From positions 28,348 to 92,347 of IMG/VR virus record IMGVR_UViG_3300042010_000040: 64,000 nt of DNA. One strand, written 5' to 3'. The notes under the pieces were generated by a model. It was not told the origin of the DNA. It worked only from the letters and a program-made list of their open reading frames with translations, and did not search any database. Source of the DNA: a virus. Positions 12,253 to 46,626 of this stretch are shown piece after piece (the stretch's first letter is position 1; each line of letters begins with the position of its first letter). Made by a program: the position numbers and the translations under genes.

Positions 12253-13536
12253 TTATGCGGTTACAGTGCCAACGATAGTAACAACGCGAACGCTGCCCTG
12301 AAGTCGTGCAGTGAAGAGGAAGTCACCAGCAACACGCTGGATTCGTTGGTTAGCTGCGATGGTCAATGGATCAGGACTTGTGACGGTCCAGCCAGAGTCA
12401 TACAAGCCGTTAGCTTGACCTTGTGCAAGTACAGAGCGCATTTCACTTTCAATGATCAAGAAACCATTACGGGTATATGGAACTTTCAACAAGTTAACAA
12501 GGCGGCTGTAGATAGCCTCTTGCATGCGTGCATAAGTCCAATCGATGCCAATGATGATATCAATCGCGTCACTAACACCAGTAGACATGTTACCGTCTTG
12601 GAAGATGTTAACACCCGCCACAGTAGTGTACATATTAGCATTCTTGGAACGCAAGTTAGTACGCTGAGTATCAGTCAATACAGAAACTGTAACCAAAGTT
12701 GCGCGTTTAAAGTCCCAGTCATTACTGCCCGGAGTACGAGGAAGCTGACTACCAGCCCAAGCTGCTTCTGGATATTCAGTGTCTGCTGTTGGCAGATAGA
12801 TGATTGCAGTACGGCTATAACTACCAGCTTTCAACAAAGATGCTGGATCGGTTGTACCAGTTGTAATGGTAACTGGGTCAGCGGTGCTGGTCAGGTAAAT
12901 TTTATGACGTGGTTGGATAGAGGCAGCAAGAGCCATAATATCAGCAGAAACATGAGTCTCTGCAATCAAAGCATACCAAGCATTAGTCACATCAGTAGCA
13001 GCGTCTAGTGCTTCAACCCAAGTTTCAGTTGGTACAGCATTAACGCCCACCAAATTCGCAGAAGACACAACACTCCAAGCAGTCCCAGCAACAGTAGGTG
13101 CCAAAGTGAGGGTAGTGGTGCCTGTGACAGTGATACCGGTTGGAGTACCAATAGCAGCTTTCAGACCAGTTACAATAGTGGTTGCTGTAGCACCAACACC
13201 AGAAGTGAACGAGTAAAGAACGCCATTGAGAGTTACACTGTAAACAGTGCTATCTGCAACTGTTGGGGTGAAGGTTACACTGTCTACTTGACGGCGACCA
13301 ACGATAATCGAAGGAGGACGTACACCATCTTGACCAAACAGGCGCTGGGCAATCTTATAAACATTGTCTGTGCTGTTGAAGTCGTCAGCTACGGCATCAA
13401 AGTCAGTGTAGGTACGAACACGTTCAGAGAAATTAGTAAATGTTGCGAGCACCAGAGGGATTTGAAAGCTAGCAGTTGCTACTGCTGTGGTTTCTCGATT
13501 TATGGTGATAGAAATAATTGAATCAAGCTCTGCCAT
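12253..13536 (-). CDS. Tail sheath protein (DUF3383-like)
   Basis: A 427-residue contractile sheath subunit. The N-terminus ('ISITINRETTAVATASFQIP') and the C-terminal 'VVTIVGTVTA' are characteristic of DUF3383-type sheaths. A Ser/Thr/Val-rich domain at ~100-165 is the variable outer domain. This identifies a contractile tail. ATG start. A 220-codon antisense frame is a shadow. Confidence 0.85.
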   Translation of the reverse strand: MAELDSIISITINRETTAVATASFQIPLVLATFTNFSERVRTYTDFDAVADDFNSTDNVYKIAQRLFGQDGVRPPSIIVGRRQVDSVTFTPTVADSTVYSVTLNGVLYSFTSGVGATATTIVTGLKAAIGTPTGITVTGTTTLTLAPTVAGTAWSVVSSANLVGVNAVPTETWVEALDAATDVTNAWYALIAETHVSADIMALAASIQPRHKIYLTSTADPVTITTGTTDPASLLKAGSYSRTAIIYLPTADTEYPEAAWAGSQLPRTPGSNDWDFKRATLVTVSVLTDTQRTNLRSKNANMYTTVAGVNIFQDGNMSTGVSDAIDIIIGIDWTYARMQEAIYSRLVNLLKVPYTRNGFLIIESEMRSVLAQGQANGLYDSGWTVTSPDPLTIAANQRIQRVAGDFLFTARLQGSVRVVTIVGTVTA

Positions 13537-17290: not shown

Positions 17291-18355
17291 TTACAAGTAC
17301 AGACGAACAACAGCGGCAGGATTGAGCATGGCGTTCAAGAAGTTCTGCTCGGTCATGATTTCGATGATGTCATCTTTTTCATTCAGGTATTCGAACCAGT
17401 ACGAACCTTGGGCACGACGGTTGATCGAACCAAAACGGTTAGCCGGAGCGTAGTAGGTTTTGAACAGATCACGAACACCAACAGGCAGCAAGTAAGCATC
17501 ACCTTCTGGAATGAACGGTACGAAAGTACCAGCAGCATTCTCGTAACCACCGGCACCGGCATTGATGAATGTGATACCGAATACAGTCATCTGTTCGAAA
17601 CGTGCATCCAGACCAGCAACATCTGCACCACCTTTACCCAACAGAATGCTTGTACCTTGGCTTTGGTCAACATACTTGAATGCGTCAGTTACGAAAGCAT
17701 TCTGTTGCAGAGCCATATAGAAGCTGTCGGAGCACAGGCATACGAAGGCACGAACAGTACCGGCTTGACCATCACGCAGACCATTACGAACAGCTTTCTT
17801 AGCAGTGTTCAGAACAGCACGAGGATCAGCAGCACCTGCGAAGTCAACATCGATTTCTTCACGAGTAACATCAAACTCGGTGTAGTAGTTGGTTACTACA
17901 GTGCCACGAGGGGCGTAAGCAGTACCACTTACAATCAGTTGCATACGAGCAGCTTCAAGAGTGAGGGAATGCGCTTCACGCAGATCAATCATCTTGTCAG
18001 CACGAACCGAAGCTACAGTTTCCAGCTCAGCAAACTCAGCCAGACTACCACCTTGAACAATACCATCGATATCATTAGGGGTGATTGCGTCATCAGCAGG
18101 GAAGTGAGGGATCTTCAGCAACAGGGAATCTTGTTCACGACCAGCGATGGTCTGATTACGTTCGTCCCAGTTACGGTCTTCCAGAATGTGACTTTTCTTG
18201 GTGTTACGAACAATCTCGATGTTCTTCTGGCTGCGATAGTCAGGAGTAAACAAACCGAGAGCGTTAGTGATACCAACAGTATTAGGAACAATGATCAGGG
18301 ATTCGGTGCGGTCTACAACCTTACCCGGATTGTTGCGGTCAAGTACAATTGCCAT
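17291..18355 (-). CDS. Major capsid protein (GpE family)
   Basis: A 354-residue capsid subunit. It shows the GpE pattern: 'RDLN-like' entry through 'HFPADDAITPNDIDGI', 'LTLEAARMQLIVSGT' near the middle, and 'EYLNEKDDIIEIMTEQN' near the end. It is preceded by the decoration and protease/scaffold genes and followed by a terminator. ATG start. A 324-codon frame on the opposite strand is a shadow. Confidence 0.9.
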   Translation of the reverse strand: MAIVLDRNNPGKVVDRTESLIIVPNTVGITNALGLFTPDYRSQKNIEIVRNTKKSHILEDRNWDERNQTIAGREQDSLLLKIPHFPADDAITPNDIDGIVQGGSLAEFAELETVASVRADKMIDLREAHSLTLEAARMQLIVSGTAYAPRGTVVTNYYTEFDVTREEIDVDFAGAADPRAVLNTAKKAVRNGLRDGQAGTVRAFVCLCSDSFYMALQQNAFVTDAFKYVDQSQGTSILLGKGGADVAGLDARFEQMTVFGITFINAGAGGYENAAGTFVPFIPEGDAYLLPVGVRDLFKTYYAPANRFGSINRRAQGSYWFEYLNEKDDIIEIMTEQNFLNAMLNPAAVVRLYL

Positions 18356-21823: not shown

Positions 21824-23278
21824 TTAAGCTCCTGCATTAAGGAAGGGGTTAGATTGAGTTAAGTTTGCGGATAGTAAGCCGGAGGAGAAGTTTGGAATTT
21901 GTAACTTCTGGGCAAGGGTGATAAATGCATCACTTGTGGCGTCCACTTGGTCATCCTTGTTCTTACGGCTCCCATCGAAACTCTCCAACTCATCAAAATA
22001 AGTGTCTGTCCAAGGCGCTTCGATATAATCAACAAGTCCGGCTTCAGCAGCTGCTGCGAATGGTTGGAATCTGATAATCTTGCTCTTATTAGAAGGACGC
22101 ATTCTAGCGTAGAAACCTTCCGACAAAAGTTCTTTAATCATCATTTGTCCGGCAGCCTTCCCAGCTTGGCCCGGTTCTTGTGGGAGTATAATTTGAGTAC
22201 CATCAGGATCAGATCCAGCAGTCTCAATTATCTTTGCCATAACTTCGCCAAATCTTGCACGAAACCTAACAACATCAATTACAATATAACGACCTTGTTT
22301 TGTCTTACCAATAAGGACGCCAGCAGTCCAGTCCGGATTTGGTAGTGCCTCACTAGGGATCGAACCGGCTATATCCCACGCACGACAGTAAGATATAATC
22401 TCTTTATCAAACAGATTAACTTTACCACAGAATTCTTTTTTCATGAATCCCGCTGCACTTTCCCTTACGAACCAATTGCCTTCCAGCAATCTTTTTCGTT
22501 CGGTGCCGCGAAGACCTTTGAGCCAAGCTACATACTTAGGGTTAACCTCTTCTACAATTTTATTGTCATAAACGTTAGCACTAATGAAGGTAAAAGATAG
22601 AGCATCTTGCTCTCTTACACCATATTCAGCTAGAAGTTGCTCTTTAGTATCAGCCCAAACAAAGTCACCATCCATGAAAGAAAAGTATCTCAACATCCCA
22701 TCTTTTGAACGGTCAGGAGTACCATCTTCTTGCAGGTAAGGCTCTACCCACTTACGAAGTCCATGATCTGCATCAGGGTTACATGTGATTTTAAGGTGGG
22801 GTTTGATCGAAGGACAAGAGGGGTTCCGCATACGAGACATGATATATTGTATCATATACATCGTATATTGGGTTCCCTCGTCTATATAGAAAAGATTTGC
22901 CTCAGACCCTTGCCAGTTTACATCAGCTTGGTCGTTTTCAAAGTGCTTTAAATATATTTCAGCACCACTAGCATGGAACACGAACTTACCATCCTTCGCA
23001 CGCCATGTATATTCATCTGGTTTATATGCTTGACTAAAGACACGTTTACATTTAGTAAGTAGACCACCCGGACCATTAAGCTGTGGTGTTGTACGACGGG
23101 TCATCACACCAATAAAGTTAGGGATATCCGTGTACTTCAAGAAGTCAATAACGCCAATTTCACTTTTTCCGCTCGCGGCTGCGCCACCGAATAAGGTTAC
23201 GTCAGCCTCCGAGGCGATATACATACTTTGGCGTAATGAACACGGGCCGGGTAACTTTTTCTGAACAACTTCAGCCAC
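21824..23278 (-). CDS. terL: Terminase large subunit
   Basis: A 484-residue packaging motor. ATPase motifs are clear: Walker A 'GGAAASGKS' (31-39) and Walker B/coupling 'LFYIDEGTQ' (129-137). The nuclease domain begins with 'RAWDIAGS' (299-306) and includes 'DDQVDATSDAF' near the C-terminus. An upstream TTG (23293) in the same frame lies on the ribosome-binding site. The GTG at 23278, six bases after AGGAGG, is the likely start. The preceding endonuclease gene overlaps this start by 8 bp. Confidence 0.92.
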   Translation of the reverse strand: MAEVVQKKLPGPCSLRQSMYIASEADVTLFGGAAASGKSEIGVIDFLKYTDIPNFIGVMTRRTTPQLNGPGGLLTKCKRVFSQAYKPDEYTWRAKDGKFVFHASGAEIYLKHFENDQADVNWQGSEANLFYIDEGTQYTMYMIQYIMSRMRNPSCPSIKPHLKITCNPDADHGLRKWVEPYLQEDGTPDRSKDGMLRYFSFMDGDFVWADTKEQLLAEYGVREQDALSFTFISANVYDNKIVEEVNPKYVAWLKGLRGTERKRLLEGNWFVRESAAGFMKKEFCGKVNLFDKEIISYCRAWDIAGSIPSEALPNPDWTAGVLIGKTKQGRYIVIDVVRFRARFGEVMAKIIETAGSDPDGTQIILPQEPGQAGKAAGQMMIKELLSEGFYARMRPSNKSKIIRFQPFAAAAEAGLVDYIEAPWTDTYFDELESFDGSRKNKDDQVDATSDAFITLAQKLQIPNFSSGLLSANLTQSNPFLNAGA

Positions 23279-24434
23279 TTGTGGCCTCCTCAATGTATTT
23301 AATAATCAAGTCTTTAGCTTCATTACTAAAGCATTCAGTGTAACCTGTGAACTTCTTAGTTGGTTTATAGTAATAACCAAGAGATTTTAATTCCCGCATA
23401 ATCTTTCTTTCAAGATTTGCAGAGTCTATATTAATCATCTCTTTTTCATATACAAAGTTATAGTCATAAATATCTTTTTGGCGTTTATAAACCTTTTCCC
23501 GACCTTTCTTATTACAAGTAATACCGAGTTTCAGGAAAGATTCCTTGCCGTCTGACATTTCAACAATATAAATTGAGCCAACTCTTTGACCAAGCTCTGT
23601 ATCTTCAGTGTACCGGTCAACCATATTATAAGTTGTTTTGTCGTAAGTACATTGGGCACAACCTTTACCTTTTACATGGCAAAGTGGACGTTGTTCAAAA
23701 ATACCATGCACATCACAAACAATTTTAACTTTAGTTTCTGTATTTACATATTCTGCAAAATCATATGAATACTTATCTTTGTGAGTTTGTTTTGCTCTTT
23801 CGATAAAGTACTCAGTCGTGTATTCTGAATAGCGTTGAAGCAAACTTCTCTCGACACCACACTTAGGACAACCATTACCATACATATGGGGTCCGGCAGA
23901 TTGCGTGAACTCACCATGTTCTGGACAGCCAATTACAACTTTCTGAGTGAAACCTTTAGTTAAGATAACTTTAGAATAGTCATATTTATGTTCATGGAAT
24001 TCCGCACTCTTAACTAGAAAGTCTTCTTGAGATAATCTCTGCTTTTCTACACTGCACTCTGGACATCCACGGGATACCAAGTGGTGTGCTACCGTCTGAC
24101 TGAAAACACCATGCTCTTTACAAATGATATCAATTTTACTTGTAGTTTTGGTTGTTGTTACTAAAGAGTAGTCAAACTTGTTTTGGTGTATTGCGGAGGC
24201 TTCAACAACAAAGTCCTCAATAGAGCGCTTGAGTGGAATAGACTCATGAACACAATGGCGACAACCTGCACCTTTCAGGTGAGAGTCAGTTCGCTGAACA
24301 AATATACCATGATCTTTACATTCAATATCAATGTAATATCTTGGACCTCTTGCTTCCCAAGCAACATATTTATATTTGCTGTCGTGTATGTTGTTTGCTT
24401 TTTCTACAAACTTTTCAAAATTAAATTCTGGCAA
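23271..24434 (-). CDS. Zinc-finger-repeat mobile endonuclease with GIY-YIG/T5orf172-like C-terminus
   Basis: A 387-residue protein inserted between terL and a hypothetical gene. It contains at least four ~65-residue repeats of the type 'KYDYS...C..HG.F.Q...H...GCP.C' (e.g. 'CKDHGIFVQ' and 'CPEHGEFTQ'), the DUF723-like DNA-binding zinc ribbons. The C-terminal ~110 residues ('GSIYIVEMSD', 'LKLGIT', 'LERKIMRELK') look like a T5orf172/GIY-YIG nuclease. The start is TTG with AGAGG eight bases upstream. Its last 8 bp overlap the terL start, so it may couple to terL translation. Confidence 0.8.
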   Translation of the reverse strand: MPEFNFEKFVEKANNIHDSKYKYVAWEARGPRYYIDIECKDHGIFVQRTDSHLKGAGCRHCVHESIPLKRSIEDFVVEASAIHQNKFDYSLVTTTKTTSKIDIICKEHGVFSQTVAHHLVSRGCPECSVEKQRLSQEDFLVKSAEFHEHKYDYSKVILTKGFTQKVVIGCPEHGEFTQSAGPHMYGNGCPKCGVERSLLQRYSEYTTEYFIERAKQTHKDKYSYDFAEYVNTETKVKIVCDVHGIFEQRPLCHVKGKGCAQCTYDKTTYNMVDRYTEDTELGQRVGSIYIVEMSDGKESFLKLGITCNKKGREKVYKRQKDIYDYNFVYEKEMINIDSANLERKIMRELKSLGYYYKPTKKFTGYTECFSNEAKDLIIKYIEEATSG

Positions 24435-42618: not shown

Positions 42619-42645
42619 ATGCAGGAAATCACTTTGGAGATTATC

Positions 42646-43107
42646 ATGATTAAAAGAATCTTAGCTCTCAGGTATGTATGCAAGAAATATGACTTAAAAT
42701 ACCACCTGAAATTCTTCGGCGACGAAGGGTGGCTTGCACCTGAAGAGAAGATTATCTGTGTCAGTTTGTTCCAAAAGCACTTCTATGAAACACTTTATCA
42801 TGAAATAGGGCACATGGTTGCAGAAAGGAGCCTAGGTTTTAAGCGGAAATATTTTAAAGCAAGGTGGTTTAGTCGTCTTCAGTTCGGTGACTATTATGAT
42901 GTGTTTGTAAGAATTGAGGAAGAAGCTAAAGCTAGTAAATTCGCTATGAGAGTGCTTAAGACTAAGGACAGGACTTATCTGAAGAACTCTTGGCATACAT
43001 ACACATCAACTGTTGCTCGGTTGATTCGTTCTGATGAGCTTGATGTTTATGTAAAAACAGTTGCAAAATATAGTGGATACTTTGAAAACAAATTGGAGAT
43101 TAAATAA
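42646..43107 (+). CDS. Zincin metalloprotease, M78/ImmA-IrrE-like
   Basis: A 153-residue protein with the zinc-protease motif 'YHEIGHMVAERS' (H-E-x-x-H) and a downstream Glu-rich helix ('RIEEEAKASKFAMRVL') that can supply the third ligand. ATG at 42646 follows GGAG. The upstream in-frame ATG at 42619 falls at the promoter and cannot be used by that transcript. M78 enzymes often cleave repressors (family knowledge). The substrate here is unknown. Confidence 0.7.
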   Translation: MIKRILALRYVCKKYDLKYHLKFFGDEGWLAPEEKIICVSLFQKHFYETLYHEIGHMVAERSLGFKRKYFKARWFSRLQFGDYYDVFVRIEEEAKASKFAMRVLKTKDRTYLKNSWHTYTSTVARLIRSDELDVYVKTVAKYSGYFENKLEIK

Positions 43108-43363: not shown

Positions 43364-43551
43364 TCATGGAGCATTCCTATGACAGAGAAGTGATCAAAGA
43401 CTTCATCCGCTGGATTAGCGATACGCATAAGTGCGCTGTCGTGAGCTTTCCGAATGAATTTGCAGCTAATAGTTATGTCAACTATCGTTTTGTCAATGTT
43501 TCAGAACTAGTGGAAGAGTTTATTGAAGGTGAAAAGCATGCAAATAATTAG
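43360..43551 (+). CDS. Hypothetical protein, 63 aa
   Basis: ATGA overlap with the membrane gene. Begins 'MIMEHSYDREVIKDFIRW'. Unknown. Confidence 0.6.
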   Translation: MIMEHSYDREVIKDFIRWISDTHKCAVVSFPNEFAANSYVNYRFVNVSELVEEFIEGEKHANN

Positions 43552-43915
43552 ATTAGATGAAAAAGGTCAGCAGATTAAACCTTGGCTAGCTACAGAAAGT
43601 ATTGTAATAACCAAAAAAGAAACAAACGTGAAAGTAGTAGAACGAAATAAGACTGTCGGATTCTTTGAGCGACTTTTCTTGCGCAAACATTACTCTAAAA
43701 TTATCGACAGTTGGGTAGAATCTGACAAAGGAACTTATCGTATTGGTGTAACTGAAGAATACGACGGATTGTTCTCTGGAAAAGTTAGAAGGAATACCTA
43801 CCACATGTCTTGTTTTCCGGGTGGTGACGACTATGCTTGGTATACAAAAGATTTGAATGAAGCTAAAGACAAATGTATCGAAGTGTTATGGAGGGCAACA
43901 AATGAATTGGTTTAA
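43538..43915 (+). CDS. Hypothetical protein, 125 aa
   Basis: ATG at 43538 behind AAGGT, overlapping the previous gene. Beta-rich start ('IIRLDEKGQQIKPW') and 'YHMSCFPGGDDYAWY' near the end. Unknown. Confidence 0.6.
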   Translation: MQIIRLDEKGQQIKPWLATESIVITKKETNVKVVERNKTVGFFERLFLRKHYSKIIDSWVESDKGTYRIGVTEEYDGLFSGKVRRNTYHMSCFPGGDDYAWYTKDLNEAKDKCIEVLWRATNELV

Positions 43916-44423
43916 GCGTATTTTCTGTGGTCAGGAAGAGTTCGGTGGTTATGTGGATCAGTGGGGGCTGCCTTCCGTGAAGAATCTTGTGCCGATACCT
44001 AAAGTGAAACCACCGAAACCCGATAAGGATATCTCTGAGCCTGTATTGTCGTTTGTCAAATGTGTTCAGGAAAACCCTAAGAGGTTTAAAGTGACCTATG
44101 ATTTTGAGTATTATGGGTGTGAAGTTAATAATGGTGTTGTGGGGATAAGTAAGAAGCCAACCACCTATAATTACTCGTTGGTAGACGTAATGACAGGGGA
44201 GAGTTGGTCTTTAACAAAAGAGATGTTATTTACCAGTTGCCGACAGGAGCGAAAACACACTTATAATCCAGAATGGTTGACAGCAGACGAAACAGAATAT
44301 TTGATTGATTCTGTCAAGACAATCTTCCAGAGTCGTAAAGATCGTAAGGCTAAGCTTCAACAAATTCGTAAAGAACGTCGTATTCGTGATGAGCGCAACC
44401 GTTTGAAGGAGATTTATAAATGA
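43902..44423 (+). CDS. Hypothetical protein, 173 aa
   Basis: ATG at 43902 behind GGAGGG. Pro/Lys-rich segment at ~30-45 ('PIPKVKPPKPDKD') and a highly basic coiled C-terminus ('RKERRIRDERNRLKEIYK'). Possible nucleic-acid binding; unknown. Confidence 0.6.
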   Translation: MNWFKRIFCGQEEFGGYVDQWGLPSVKNLVPIPKVKPPKPDKDISEPVLSFVKCVQENPKRFKVTYDFEYYGCEVNNGVVGISKKPTTYNYSLVDVMTGESWSLTKEMLFTSCRQERKHTYNPEWLTADETEYLIDSVKTIFQSRKDRKAKLQQIRKERRIRDERNRLKEIYK

Positions 44424-44650
44424 ATAATGATTTAGAGCGTGCAGTTTATAATATACTATGGGTTTGGTATCAATATAATTATACACATAAGAGCACAGAA
44501 GACTACTTCAGTCATGCTTGTATGGGTGCTGGAGAAAATGCAGCATTGTTTCTTGAACGGTTGGGCTATGGGCACGATGATGGTTGGGGGTTTGTACCTA
44601 ATCAGAGAGCAAAAGACTTGATGGCTAATGAACTGGAGATGGAAGAATGA
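44420..44650 (+). CDS. Hypothetical protein, 76 aa
   Basis: ATGA overlaps on both sides, directly before the PhaZ-like gene. 'LERAVYNILWVWYQYNYTHK' at the start and an acidic end. Unknown. Confidence 0.6.
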   Translation: MNNDLERAVYNILWVWYQYNYTHKSTEDYFSHACMGAGENAALFLERLGYGHDDGWGFVPNQRAKDLMANELEMEE

Positions 44651-45483
44651 GCATTCAAATGCAAAACCAAACAATCATGTTGGGGAACCAATCCATATAC
44701 GTTTCGATTAAGCCGGGGAAGGGTGGTACTATTCCTCTGTTGATCATGAATGGCATTGGAGCGAATACAACTTTACTGACTCCTTTTGTCGAAGCTATGC
44801 ATGAAGCGAATCCTGATATCGAGATCATTACTTTCGATGTGCCCGGTTGTGGAGGTAGCTCTACTCCAAGTATACCGTACAGGTTTAGTGGTTTGGCTAG
44901 AACAGTAAGTCAGATGCTTGATTATCTTAACTATGCACAAGTTGATGTACTCGGTTTAAGTTGGGGTGGATTTTTGGCGTCCCAGTTTGCATATGACCAC
45001 CCTCAGCGCGGCAATAAACTAATTTTGTGTGCTACAGCAACAGGAGTTACATCCATCCCGCCAAGTTTGAAAGTACTTTCTCTGATGGCTTCTCCTAGAC
45101 GCTATACTGATTCGGCCTATATGATTGAAGTTGCACCTCTGATCTACGGTGGAAAATTCCAAACAGATCCTGAGCTAGCAATTAAGTATGCACAGAAGAT
45201 GGAAGCTAATAGGTCTGAAAATAAAGCTAACGCCACTGGATACAAGTTTCAACAGCTAGCAATTTGTTGGTGGAGCAGTTTGTGGATGCTTCCTTACATT
45301 AAACAGCCTACACTTTTGATTGGTGGTAGCGATGATCCAATCATTCCGTTGGTGAATATGAAGATTATGAAAGGGCTTATTCCTAATTCTAAACTTCATG
45401 TGGTGGATGATGGTCACCTTTTCCTTCTTTGTTCAACGGATGTTGTAACACCTATTATTAACGAGTTTTTGGAGAGTAAATAA
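44647..45483 (+). CDS. phaZ: PhaZ-like intracellular polyhydroxyalkanoate depolymerase
   Basis: A 278-residue alpha/beta hydrolase, the same length class as Pseudomonas PhaZ (about 280). Several PhaZ hallmarks are present: 'NGIGAN' oxyanion region (35-40), 'FDVPGCGGSSTP' (63-74), nucleophile Ser105 in 'GLSWGG', 'MASPRRY' (147-153), 'APLIYGG' (163-169), Asp229/230 in 'GGSDDPIIPLVNM', and catalytic His257 in 'DDGHLFL'. PhaZ hydrolyses stored medium-chain-length PHA to 3-hydroxy fatty acids in the cytoplasm. It lies in an early operon with ATGA overlaps. The likely benefit is release of host carbon and energy during infection (inference). A different esterase substrate cannot be excluded. Confidence 0.85.
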   Translation: MSIQMQNQTIMLGNQSIYVSIKPGKGGTIPLLIMNGIGANTTLLTPFVEAMHEANPDIEIITFDVPGCGGSSTPSIPYRFSGLARTVSQMLDYLNYAQVDVLGLSWGGFLASQFAYDHPQRGNKLILCATATGVTSIPPSLKVLSLMASPRRYTDSAYMIEVAPLIYGGKFQTDPELAIKYAQKMEANRSENKANATGYKFQQLAICWWSSLWMLPYIKQPTLLIGGSDDPIIPLVNMKIMKGLIPNSKLHVVDDGHLFLLCSTDVVTPIINEFLESK

Positions 45484-45716
45484 TGAAACTAGAGCCTCCT
45501 AAACCACCGCCAAGGCGTTGTATGCAAGGCTACACTTGGGTAAATGAGTGGGAACTTGTGGATTGGTACACTGATATGGGTAAGCTTTATGATAAGCGCA
45601 GTATCTATGAAGACCGCTGGGGTTGGTTCTTCAATCTGTTTAAGAGAGTCTATCAAATTAAGCTTGAAAAGAGTCTTATGAAGAATCGAATGGTGTGTAC
45701 GGAGTGGCCTAGATGA
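45483..45716 (+). CDS. Hypothetical protein, 77 aa
   Basis: ATG shares a base with the phaZ stop. Pro/Arg-rich start ('LEPPKPPPRRCMQGYTW') and Trp-rich middle. Probably co-translated with phaZ. Unknown. Confidence 0.6.
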   Translation: MKLEPPKPPPRRCMQGYTWVNEWELVDWYTDMGKLYDKRSIYEDRWGWFFNLFKRVYQIKLEKSLMKNRMVCTEWPR

Positions 45717-45925
45717 ATGATTTCAATAGTTGGGAAGAAGTAGCTGCATACCTACAAGCTAATCAATACAATGCAGTGGATGTTGGCGGTGTATTCTGGT
45801 ATTCAGAAACTCATAGTTGCTGTTATGATGATTGTCAGTGTGAGGAAGATTATAATTCTGTGGTAGAAACTTTAGCATCTATTCAATATATGTGTGATGG
45901 ACTGCATGAGGTATGGAAACGATGA
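45713..45925 (+). CDS. Hypothetical protein, 70 aa
   Basis: ATGA overlap. A Cys/Asp cluster 'SCCYDDCQCEEDY' could bind a metal. Unknown. Confidence 0.6.
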   Translation: MNDFNSWEEVAAYLQANQYNAVDVGGVFWYSETHSCCYDDCQCEEDYNSVVETLASIQYMCDGLHEVWKR

Positions 45926-46143
45926 GTTCTGAACGCTGCTCATGTGGAGCTAGGGAGAAGAATAAGTGTAACAAGGAGAGTGAACACAAGACAGGGAAGA
46001 TGTGTTTGAAACCTGAAGACACACTATTCATTAACTTTAGAGACACCTTAAGTGGTGGTTTCTGTGCTGACATAGATTATGAATCACAAGCTTGGCAGAA
46101 AGTGTTGAGTGATTGGGAAGGGTTTAAAATTGAGGAGAAGTAA
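45922..46143 (+). CDS. Hypothetical Cys-containing protein, 73 aa
   Basis: ATG at 45922 gives the standard ATGA overlap and a better-spaced GAGGT than the ATG at 45913. 'CSCGAREKNKCNKES' near the N-terminus. Unknown. Confidence 0.6.
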   Translation: MSSERCSCGAREKNKCNKESEHKTGKMCLKPEDTLFINFRDTLSGGFCADIDYESQAWQKVLSDWEGFKIEEK

Positions 46144-46626
46144 ATGTTAGTTGAAATGGACAAGGAGATGCTGTCTGCACTAATCAAGGGTTGTGATCCA
46201 GCCTATGAGATTATGGATCATCCGTTGATTAAGTCTAAAGGTTATTATTCAGGTGGGCACAGTGACAGATGGAACTGGAACCATTCTTTTGGAGATTGTA
46301 CAGAGGAACAGTTGTGGGAGACGTATCAACTTCTACAGAATCCTGCACCTTACAAAGATAAATCAAAAGTTTATGGTGGTCCTTGCTCCATTAATGATCT
46401 GTATGACAGGTTGTATGCACTTGAAGGGGTCACTTGGGTTTATATTGAAGACCACAACAACCTAGACGTTACAATCACAGTTGAGGGTGGGAGTGATGAA
46501 CAGATTGCTAATGTACTGTGTAACAGCTTACCTATGATGTGTAGGACTCTTGGTAATTACCAAGTCTCAACTATGTTGGTAGGGTATTTGATTACTTATC
46601 GTATTTACAGGAAGATGCAAGAATGA
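46144..46626 (+). CDS. Hypothetical protein, 160 aa
   Basis: ATG immediately after the previous stop, with GAGGAGAAG upstream. Starts 'MLVEMDKEMLSALIKGC'. Mixed alpha/beta; not recognised. Confidence 0.6.
   Translation: MLVEMDKEMLSALIKGCDPAYEIMDHPLIKSKGYYSGGHSDRWNWNHSFGDCTEEQLWETYQLLQNPAPYKDKSKVYGGPCSINDLYDRLYALEGVTWVYIEDHNNLDVTITVEGGSDEQIANVLCNSLPMMCRTLGNYQVSTMLVGYLITYRIYRKMQE

Follow-up and report, generated by a model that had tools for sequence, protein, structure and literature searches.

A phage-type homologue of the Pseudomonas PHA depolymerase PhaZ carried by unrelated phages

A contractile-tailed phage with a 92-kb genome carries phaZ, a gene whose product belongs to the PhaZ family of intracellular PHA depolymerases. 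The gene lies in the window analysed here, a stretch of 64,000 bases that corresponds to bases 28348-92347 of the 92,347-base IMG/VR virus record IMGVR_UViG_3300042010_000040. With a probability of roughly 70%, we take phaZ to be a phage gene for an intracellular PHA depolymerase like the mcl-PhaZ of Pseudomonas, serving as an accessory auxiliary metabolic gene (AMG) that mobilises host mcl-PHA in the course of infection. The locus comprises the following features:

44647-45483, plus strand: phaZ, intracellular PHA depolymerase homologue of the phage type, 278 amino acids (TIGR02240 at 320 bits, catalytic triad, AlphaFold2 model)
44953-44973, plus strand: nucleophile elbow GLSWG (residues 103-107; Ser105 at 44959-44961) through to Phe109 (44971-44973), the phage-type SWGGF signature (residue count on the translation)
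45208-45225, plus strand: six-residue insertion NRSENK (residues 188-193) at the lid hinge, adjoining the equivalent of P. putida Ser184 (pairwise mapping)
44420-44650, plus strand: small ORF with a 4-base ATGA overlap with the phaZ start, no Pfam matches (ORF list, Pfam)
45483-45716, plus strand: small ORF sharing one base with phaZ, as its ATG begins on the final base of the phaZ stop codon (TAATG), no Pfam matches (ORF list, Pfam)
43497-46622, plus strand: accessory cassette of phaZ and small ORFs, missing in the close relative G030 (blastn and ORF synteny, G030:C1:51000-57500)

The phaZ ORF starts with ATG and runs through 278 codons without internal stops. Its ATGA overlap with the preceding small ORF points to an apparent translational coupling of the two. 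The gene belongs to a block of small, rightward-oriented phage genes (~34-49 kb) with positive GC skew, from which PhaZ would be expressed during infection. The sign of the skew flips at ~34 kb and ~50 kb in the window, and two leftward blocks flank the rightward one. Promoter and terminator scans returned matches at chance level.

Genes for the tail sheath, tape measure, major head protein, portal and terminase share the window with phaZ, as do genes for PhoH, a ClpP-like protease, a dCMP deaminase and HNH. The gene thus resides in a viral genome among phage genes, with a similar gene neighbourhood in related contigs, and is truly phage-borne. Three genes characterize the phage:

21824-23293, minus strand: terminase large subunit, phrog_979, the lineage marker, ~50% identity to Pseudomonas phages KPP10, Ep020 and 16Q
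12253-13536, minus strand: tail sheath, phrog_205 (contractile-tailed phage)
17291-18355, minus strand: major head protein, phrog_29

Cultured phages with terminases related to that of the window infect Pseudomonas, and the carriers of phage-type PhaZ probably do the same. In megablast comparisons with cultured phages, the window and the PhaZ-bearing contigs L097, L101 and L113 had no match, and L100 had a single match of 101 bases.

An earlier note on this DNA had claimed likeness to PhaZ along the whole protein, beyond the general hydrolase motifs, and this was borne out by NCBIfam. The window protein matched TIGR02240 (PHA_depoly_arom), the curated NCBI equivalog model for the PHA depolymerase PhaZ, with 320.2 bits (E=1e-95) against a curated cut-off of 250.6, which applies to the whole protein; the alignment extended end to end (protein residues 8-276 on profile positions 5-264 of 276). 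Eight further viral PhaZs, picked across phage kinds, also passed (8/8; 314-477 bits). The HMM search that had been proposed as a check on identity returned TIGR02240 as the best family and no other family near its cut-off, the runner-up models PcaD (89 bits) and HsaD (64 bits) lying far under their own. Pfam recognized only the alpha/beta hydrolase fold. A generic esterase, PcaD and a haloalkane dehalogenase were rejected as identities of the protein on model scores far under the cut-offs. The AlphaFold2 model was confident (pLDDT 92.5, pTM 0.91) and shows a lidded alpha/beta hydrolase, with the hinge of the lid as its region of lowest confidence. Among solved structures, alpha/beta esterases come closest in fold; a Bacillus PhaZ (8ynv/8ynw) also appears among the matches, but the fold alone does not discriminate. 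In a tree with bacterial PhaZ, the other check proposed, the viral proteins grouped with the Pseudomonas PhaZ branch. Taken together, the equivalog score, the triad and lid motifs, and the tree confirm that the window protein belongs to the PhaZ family.

The triad published for P. putida KT2440 PhaZ, Ser102, Asp221 and His248 (PMC12504323), corresponds one to one to S105, D230 and H257 of the window protein and is invariant in 37 sequences. Ser105, in GLSWG, and His257 stand as first read from the sequence; 'Asp229/230' was narrowed to Asp230 and 229 was dropped, because Asp230 aligns with Asp221 of Pseudomonas PhaZ and is invariant in those sequences, whereas position 229 is Gln in L133.

The window protein shares with P. 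putida KT2440 PhaZ whole-length homology, the triad, the N35/GIG loop and a lid with the GY..Q hinge motif. In contrast to that enzyme, it is phage-borne with no phasin gene alongside, has F109 for Ala106, three additional residues after position 51 and six at the lid hinge, and lacks the C-terminal tail (~14-16 residues). At the lid connections, MNGIG, in which N35 is kept, replaces FNGIG (34-38), and YKFQQL replaces YYWQLF (190-195). Asn35 is reportedly essential in P. putida PhaZ (PMC12504323); Thr takes its place in three of the 11 proteins of the window's clade (L008, L095 and L131), which may be altered or inactive enzymes. Ser184 is a hinge residue of the PhaZKT lid, and the substitution S184F reduced depolymerase activity by a factor of 16 and increased esterase activity; published lid deletions in mcl-PHA depolymerases all abolished activity (PMC12504323). 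In the alignment, the window clade departs from PhaZKT exactly at the sites that tune the choice between polymer and small esters, and the hinge insertion, F109 and the absent C-terminal tail could alter specificity.

These departures are what would be expected if the phage clade were PhaZ-derived esterases of shifted specificity, hydrolysing another ester (a small acyl ester, a membrane lipid or a signalling ester) instead of PHA. The clade-specific F109 stands beside the nucleophile elbow, the insertion falls at the S184 position, a single hinge change is enough to move PhaZKT from depolymerase towards esterase (PMC12504323), and both the T35 proteins and the low confidence of the modelled hinge would fit. 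However, all nine viral proteins tested passed TIGR02240, several with a margin of over 100 bits. For the window protein, other families came nowhere near their cut-offs; it retains the lid, and the probable hosts belong to Pseudomonas, a genus with mcl-PHA genes. We consider a change of substrate unlikely and favour a depolymerase.

A scan of viral contigs yielded eight relatives at 63-92% identity, and a profile search raised the number of other IMG/VR viral contigs with a PhaZ relative to 48, at 44-92%. By their hallmark genes, the PhaZ-bearing contigs represent at least seven phage kinds, including KPP10-like myoviruses, two jumbo phages, siphophages and a P1-like element. The window exemplifies the first kind, which is contractile-tailed with a KPP10-like myovirus terminase. 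L096 comes from a 283-kb Noxifer-like jumbo contig; when 20.8 kb of it were aligned with Noxifer, a phage of P. fluorescens SBW25, 64% matched at 77% nucleotide identity. Its phaZ is flanked by the DNA polymerase gene and by a gene at the position of the Noxifer NTP pyrophosphohydrolase; in Noxifer, two short hypothetical genes fill this interval (genes were matched by position and length). A second jumbo contig of 228 kb (L097) carries phaZ, and a GroEL-like chaperonin gene (L097:42-1163) lies near it. The siphophage type (L098-L128) has tape measure, portal and terminase genes, L113 has sheath and baseplate genes, and L125 has a phrog_38 terminase. The P1-like contig L121 (86 kb) encodes DarB/Hdf-like antirestriction genes and an integrase; there phaZ directly follows the gene of a 1342-aa DarB-like protein (L121:5819-10846). 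On a 116-kb phage contig, a nicotinamide phosphoribosyl transferase gene (L101:205-1953) is found ~8 kb from phaZ, and NAD supply and carbon-store mobilisation may be paired in this phage.

A tyrosine integrase was absent from 28 of the 29 PhaZ-bearing records tested, the exception being L121, and most carriers therefore look lytic. No phasin gene was found in PhaZ-bearing records by a search that in a control detected phasin in only two of 14 genomes. An acyl-CoA ligase gene was likewise not found in these records.

Going by the known biochemistry of PhaZ (PMC12504323; PMC4834554), the phage enzyme would attack mcl-PHA granules in the cytoplasm of the host, Ser105-Asp230-His257 performing catalysis behind the lid, and would hydrolyse the polymer to free 3-hydroxyalkanoic acids. 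The activity of PhaZKT is confined almost entirely to mcl-PHA (PMC12504323). Because the phage brings neither a phasin nor an acyl-CoA ligase, the later steps would be the host's: its acyl-CoA synthetase and beta-oxidation would convert the acids to acetyl-CoA, NADH and precursors from which virions are made. PHA monomers are known to enter beta-oxidation (PMC4834554), and the phage would probably benefit by feeding lipid or energy metabolism from host PHA. Besides the departures from PhaZKT, the T35 proteins and the reliance on host genes, further points count against this explanation. The hosts already own a PhaZ, and in Bdellovibrio, an analogous predator, the number of progeny was independent of prey mcl-PHA (PMC4834554).

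The Bdellovibrio result would agree with a dissolution of granules for space or regulation, in which cell volume, phasins or the nucleoid are freed or the PHA cycle is broken, and replication and packaging proceed. The occurrence of phaZ in phages of very different genome size, jumbo phages included, and the lack of the downstream catabolic ligase gene are also in keeping with such a role. However, its first chemical step is the same as in the use of PHA as fuel, so sequence cannot separate the two, and we judge it quite improbable. The presence of a distinct phage version of PhaZ in many unrelated viruses suggests, short of proof, that viruses raid the carbon store of the host during infection.

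Purifying selection acts on phaZ. Comparison of the window gene with near relatives gave dN/dS of 0.08-0.14 (about 0.09) at dS of 0.58-1.5, as for a homologue of a Pseudomonas chromosomal gene kept by selection. Its GC and GC3 track each phage and not the host (GC3 0.37 vs 0.84 in P. putida). Among 28 records fetched with the terminase, three carried phaZ and 25 did not; several are fragments, so absence is firm for the long records only. One record, G030, whose terminase is 99% identical to that of the window, retains the genes on both flanks, with ~300 bases replacing window positions 43497-46622 (3.1 kb), which indicates that phaZ travels in a cassette. In the same region of G030 (L179, G030:C1:51000-57500), at ~54.2-54.7 kb of the record, the window ORF 42619-43107 has a homologue that is broken up into two ORFs.

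This accessory distribution, with absence even beside a 99% identical terminase, might also be expected of a neutral, hitch-hiking host gene caught by transduction or of host sequence mis-assembled into viral contigs, a reading to which we give practically no credence, since it is refuted in the main by dN/dS of ~0.09 over dS of 0.6-0.8, by a position among phage genes that is conserved in related contigs, by the phage GC, by the synteny of the phage genes around phaZ in the Noxifer-like jumbo contig and by a maximum identity to the window protein of 56% in 400 Pseudomonas genomes. Host contamination was ruled out on the same related-contig synteny, GC, Noxifer-like flanks and lack of a close host copy.

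Chromosomal PhaZ of Pseudomonas is ~51-54% identical to the window protein over the whole length; bacterial homologues were found by profile search of genome contigs, the window protein alone as query giving no matches. A tree that included near outgroups placed 39 viral PhaZs in one clade (support 98/98) together with two atypical bacterial copies, and chromosomal Pseudomonas PhaZ was the sister of this clade (98/90; joint node 98/96). In an earlier tree with distant, long-branched outgroups, the chromosomal sequences had nested within the viral ones. A single origin is therefore likely but not proven, and depends on the second tree, for which nearer bacterial outgroups were added and long branches dropped. 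Residue 109 is Phe in 47 of 49 viral and Ala in 113 of 117 bacterial PhaZs. The bacterial proteins with Phe109 are a second copy in P. lini CC269 (L015/L218, contig C5), a copy in one other Pseudomonas genome (L192/L217) and one on a P. silesiensis megaplasmid. The first two are ~65-67% identical to the jumbo-phage protein, and their neighbours resemble no ORF of the viral loci, the context being seemingly chromosomal. Either the phage gene derives from such cellular copies, or the bacteria acquired these copies from phages. We see even odds that Pseudomonas phages share one horizontally traded PhaZ lineage of single origin, spread through unrelated groups (KPP10-like, Noxifer-like jumbo, siphophage and P1-like) to cash in the host's bioplastic, granule digestion being a general phage strategy in PHA-rich habitats.

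Phages of PHA-producing mixed cultures have been found to carry phaC (PHA synthase), phbB, fadD and other AMGs, which were transcribed there (PMC12013262). They too are phage-encoded enzymes of host PHA metabolism; however, they belong to the synthesis side and were assigned by annotation, and neither a depolymerase nor a phage-specific clade is mentioned in that study. PhaZBd of Bdellovibrio bacteriovorus (PMC4834554) offers the parallel of a Pseudomonas killer that digests prey mcl-PHA with a depolymerase of its own, but its owner is a predatory bacterium and not a virus, and the enzyme is extracellular-like. The sole PHROG matches of the window protein, phrog_789 and phrog_23613, are phage alpha/beta hydrolases labelled 'esterase/lipase' and are distant (98.5 and 20.8 bits). 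No close homologue was found among the cultured phages of INPHARED, where the best near-full-length matches had 22-28% identity, or in a library of predicted viral structures, and no earlier report of a phage PhaZ was found in the open literature (subscription papers and preprints were outside the scope). The enzyme family and the AMG concept are known; as far as could be checked, a phage-specific PhaZ lineage across unrelated phages is new.

Carbon storage polymers potentially make up a large share of a starving Pseudomonas cell. The infection of starved cells has long puzzled phage ecologists, and a depolymerase owned by the phage would link host PHA content to phage yield in a testable manner. 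The phage-type enzymes with their altered lid hinge also constitute a natural set of variants for mcl-PHA depolymerases.
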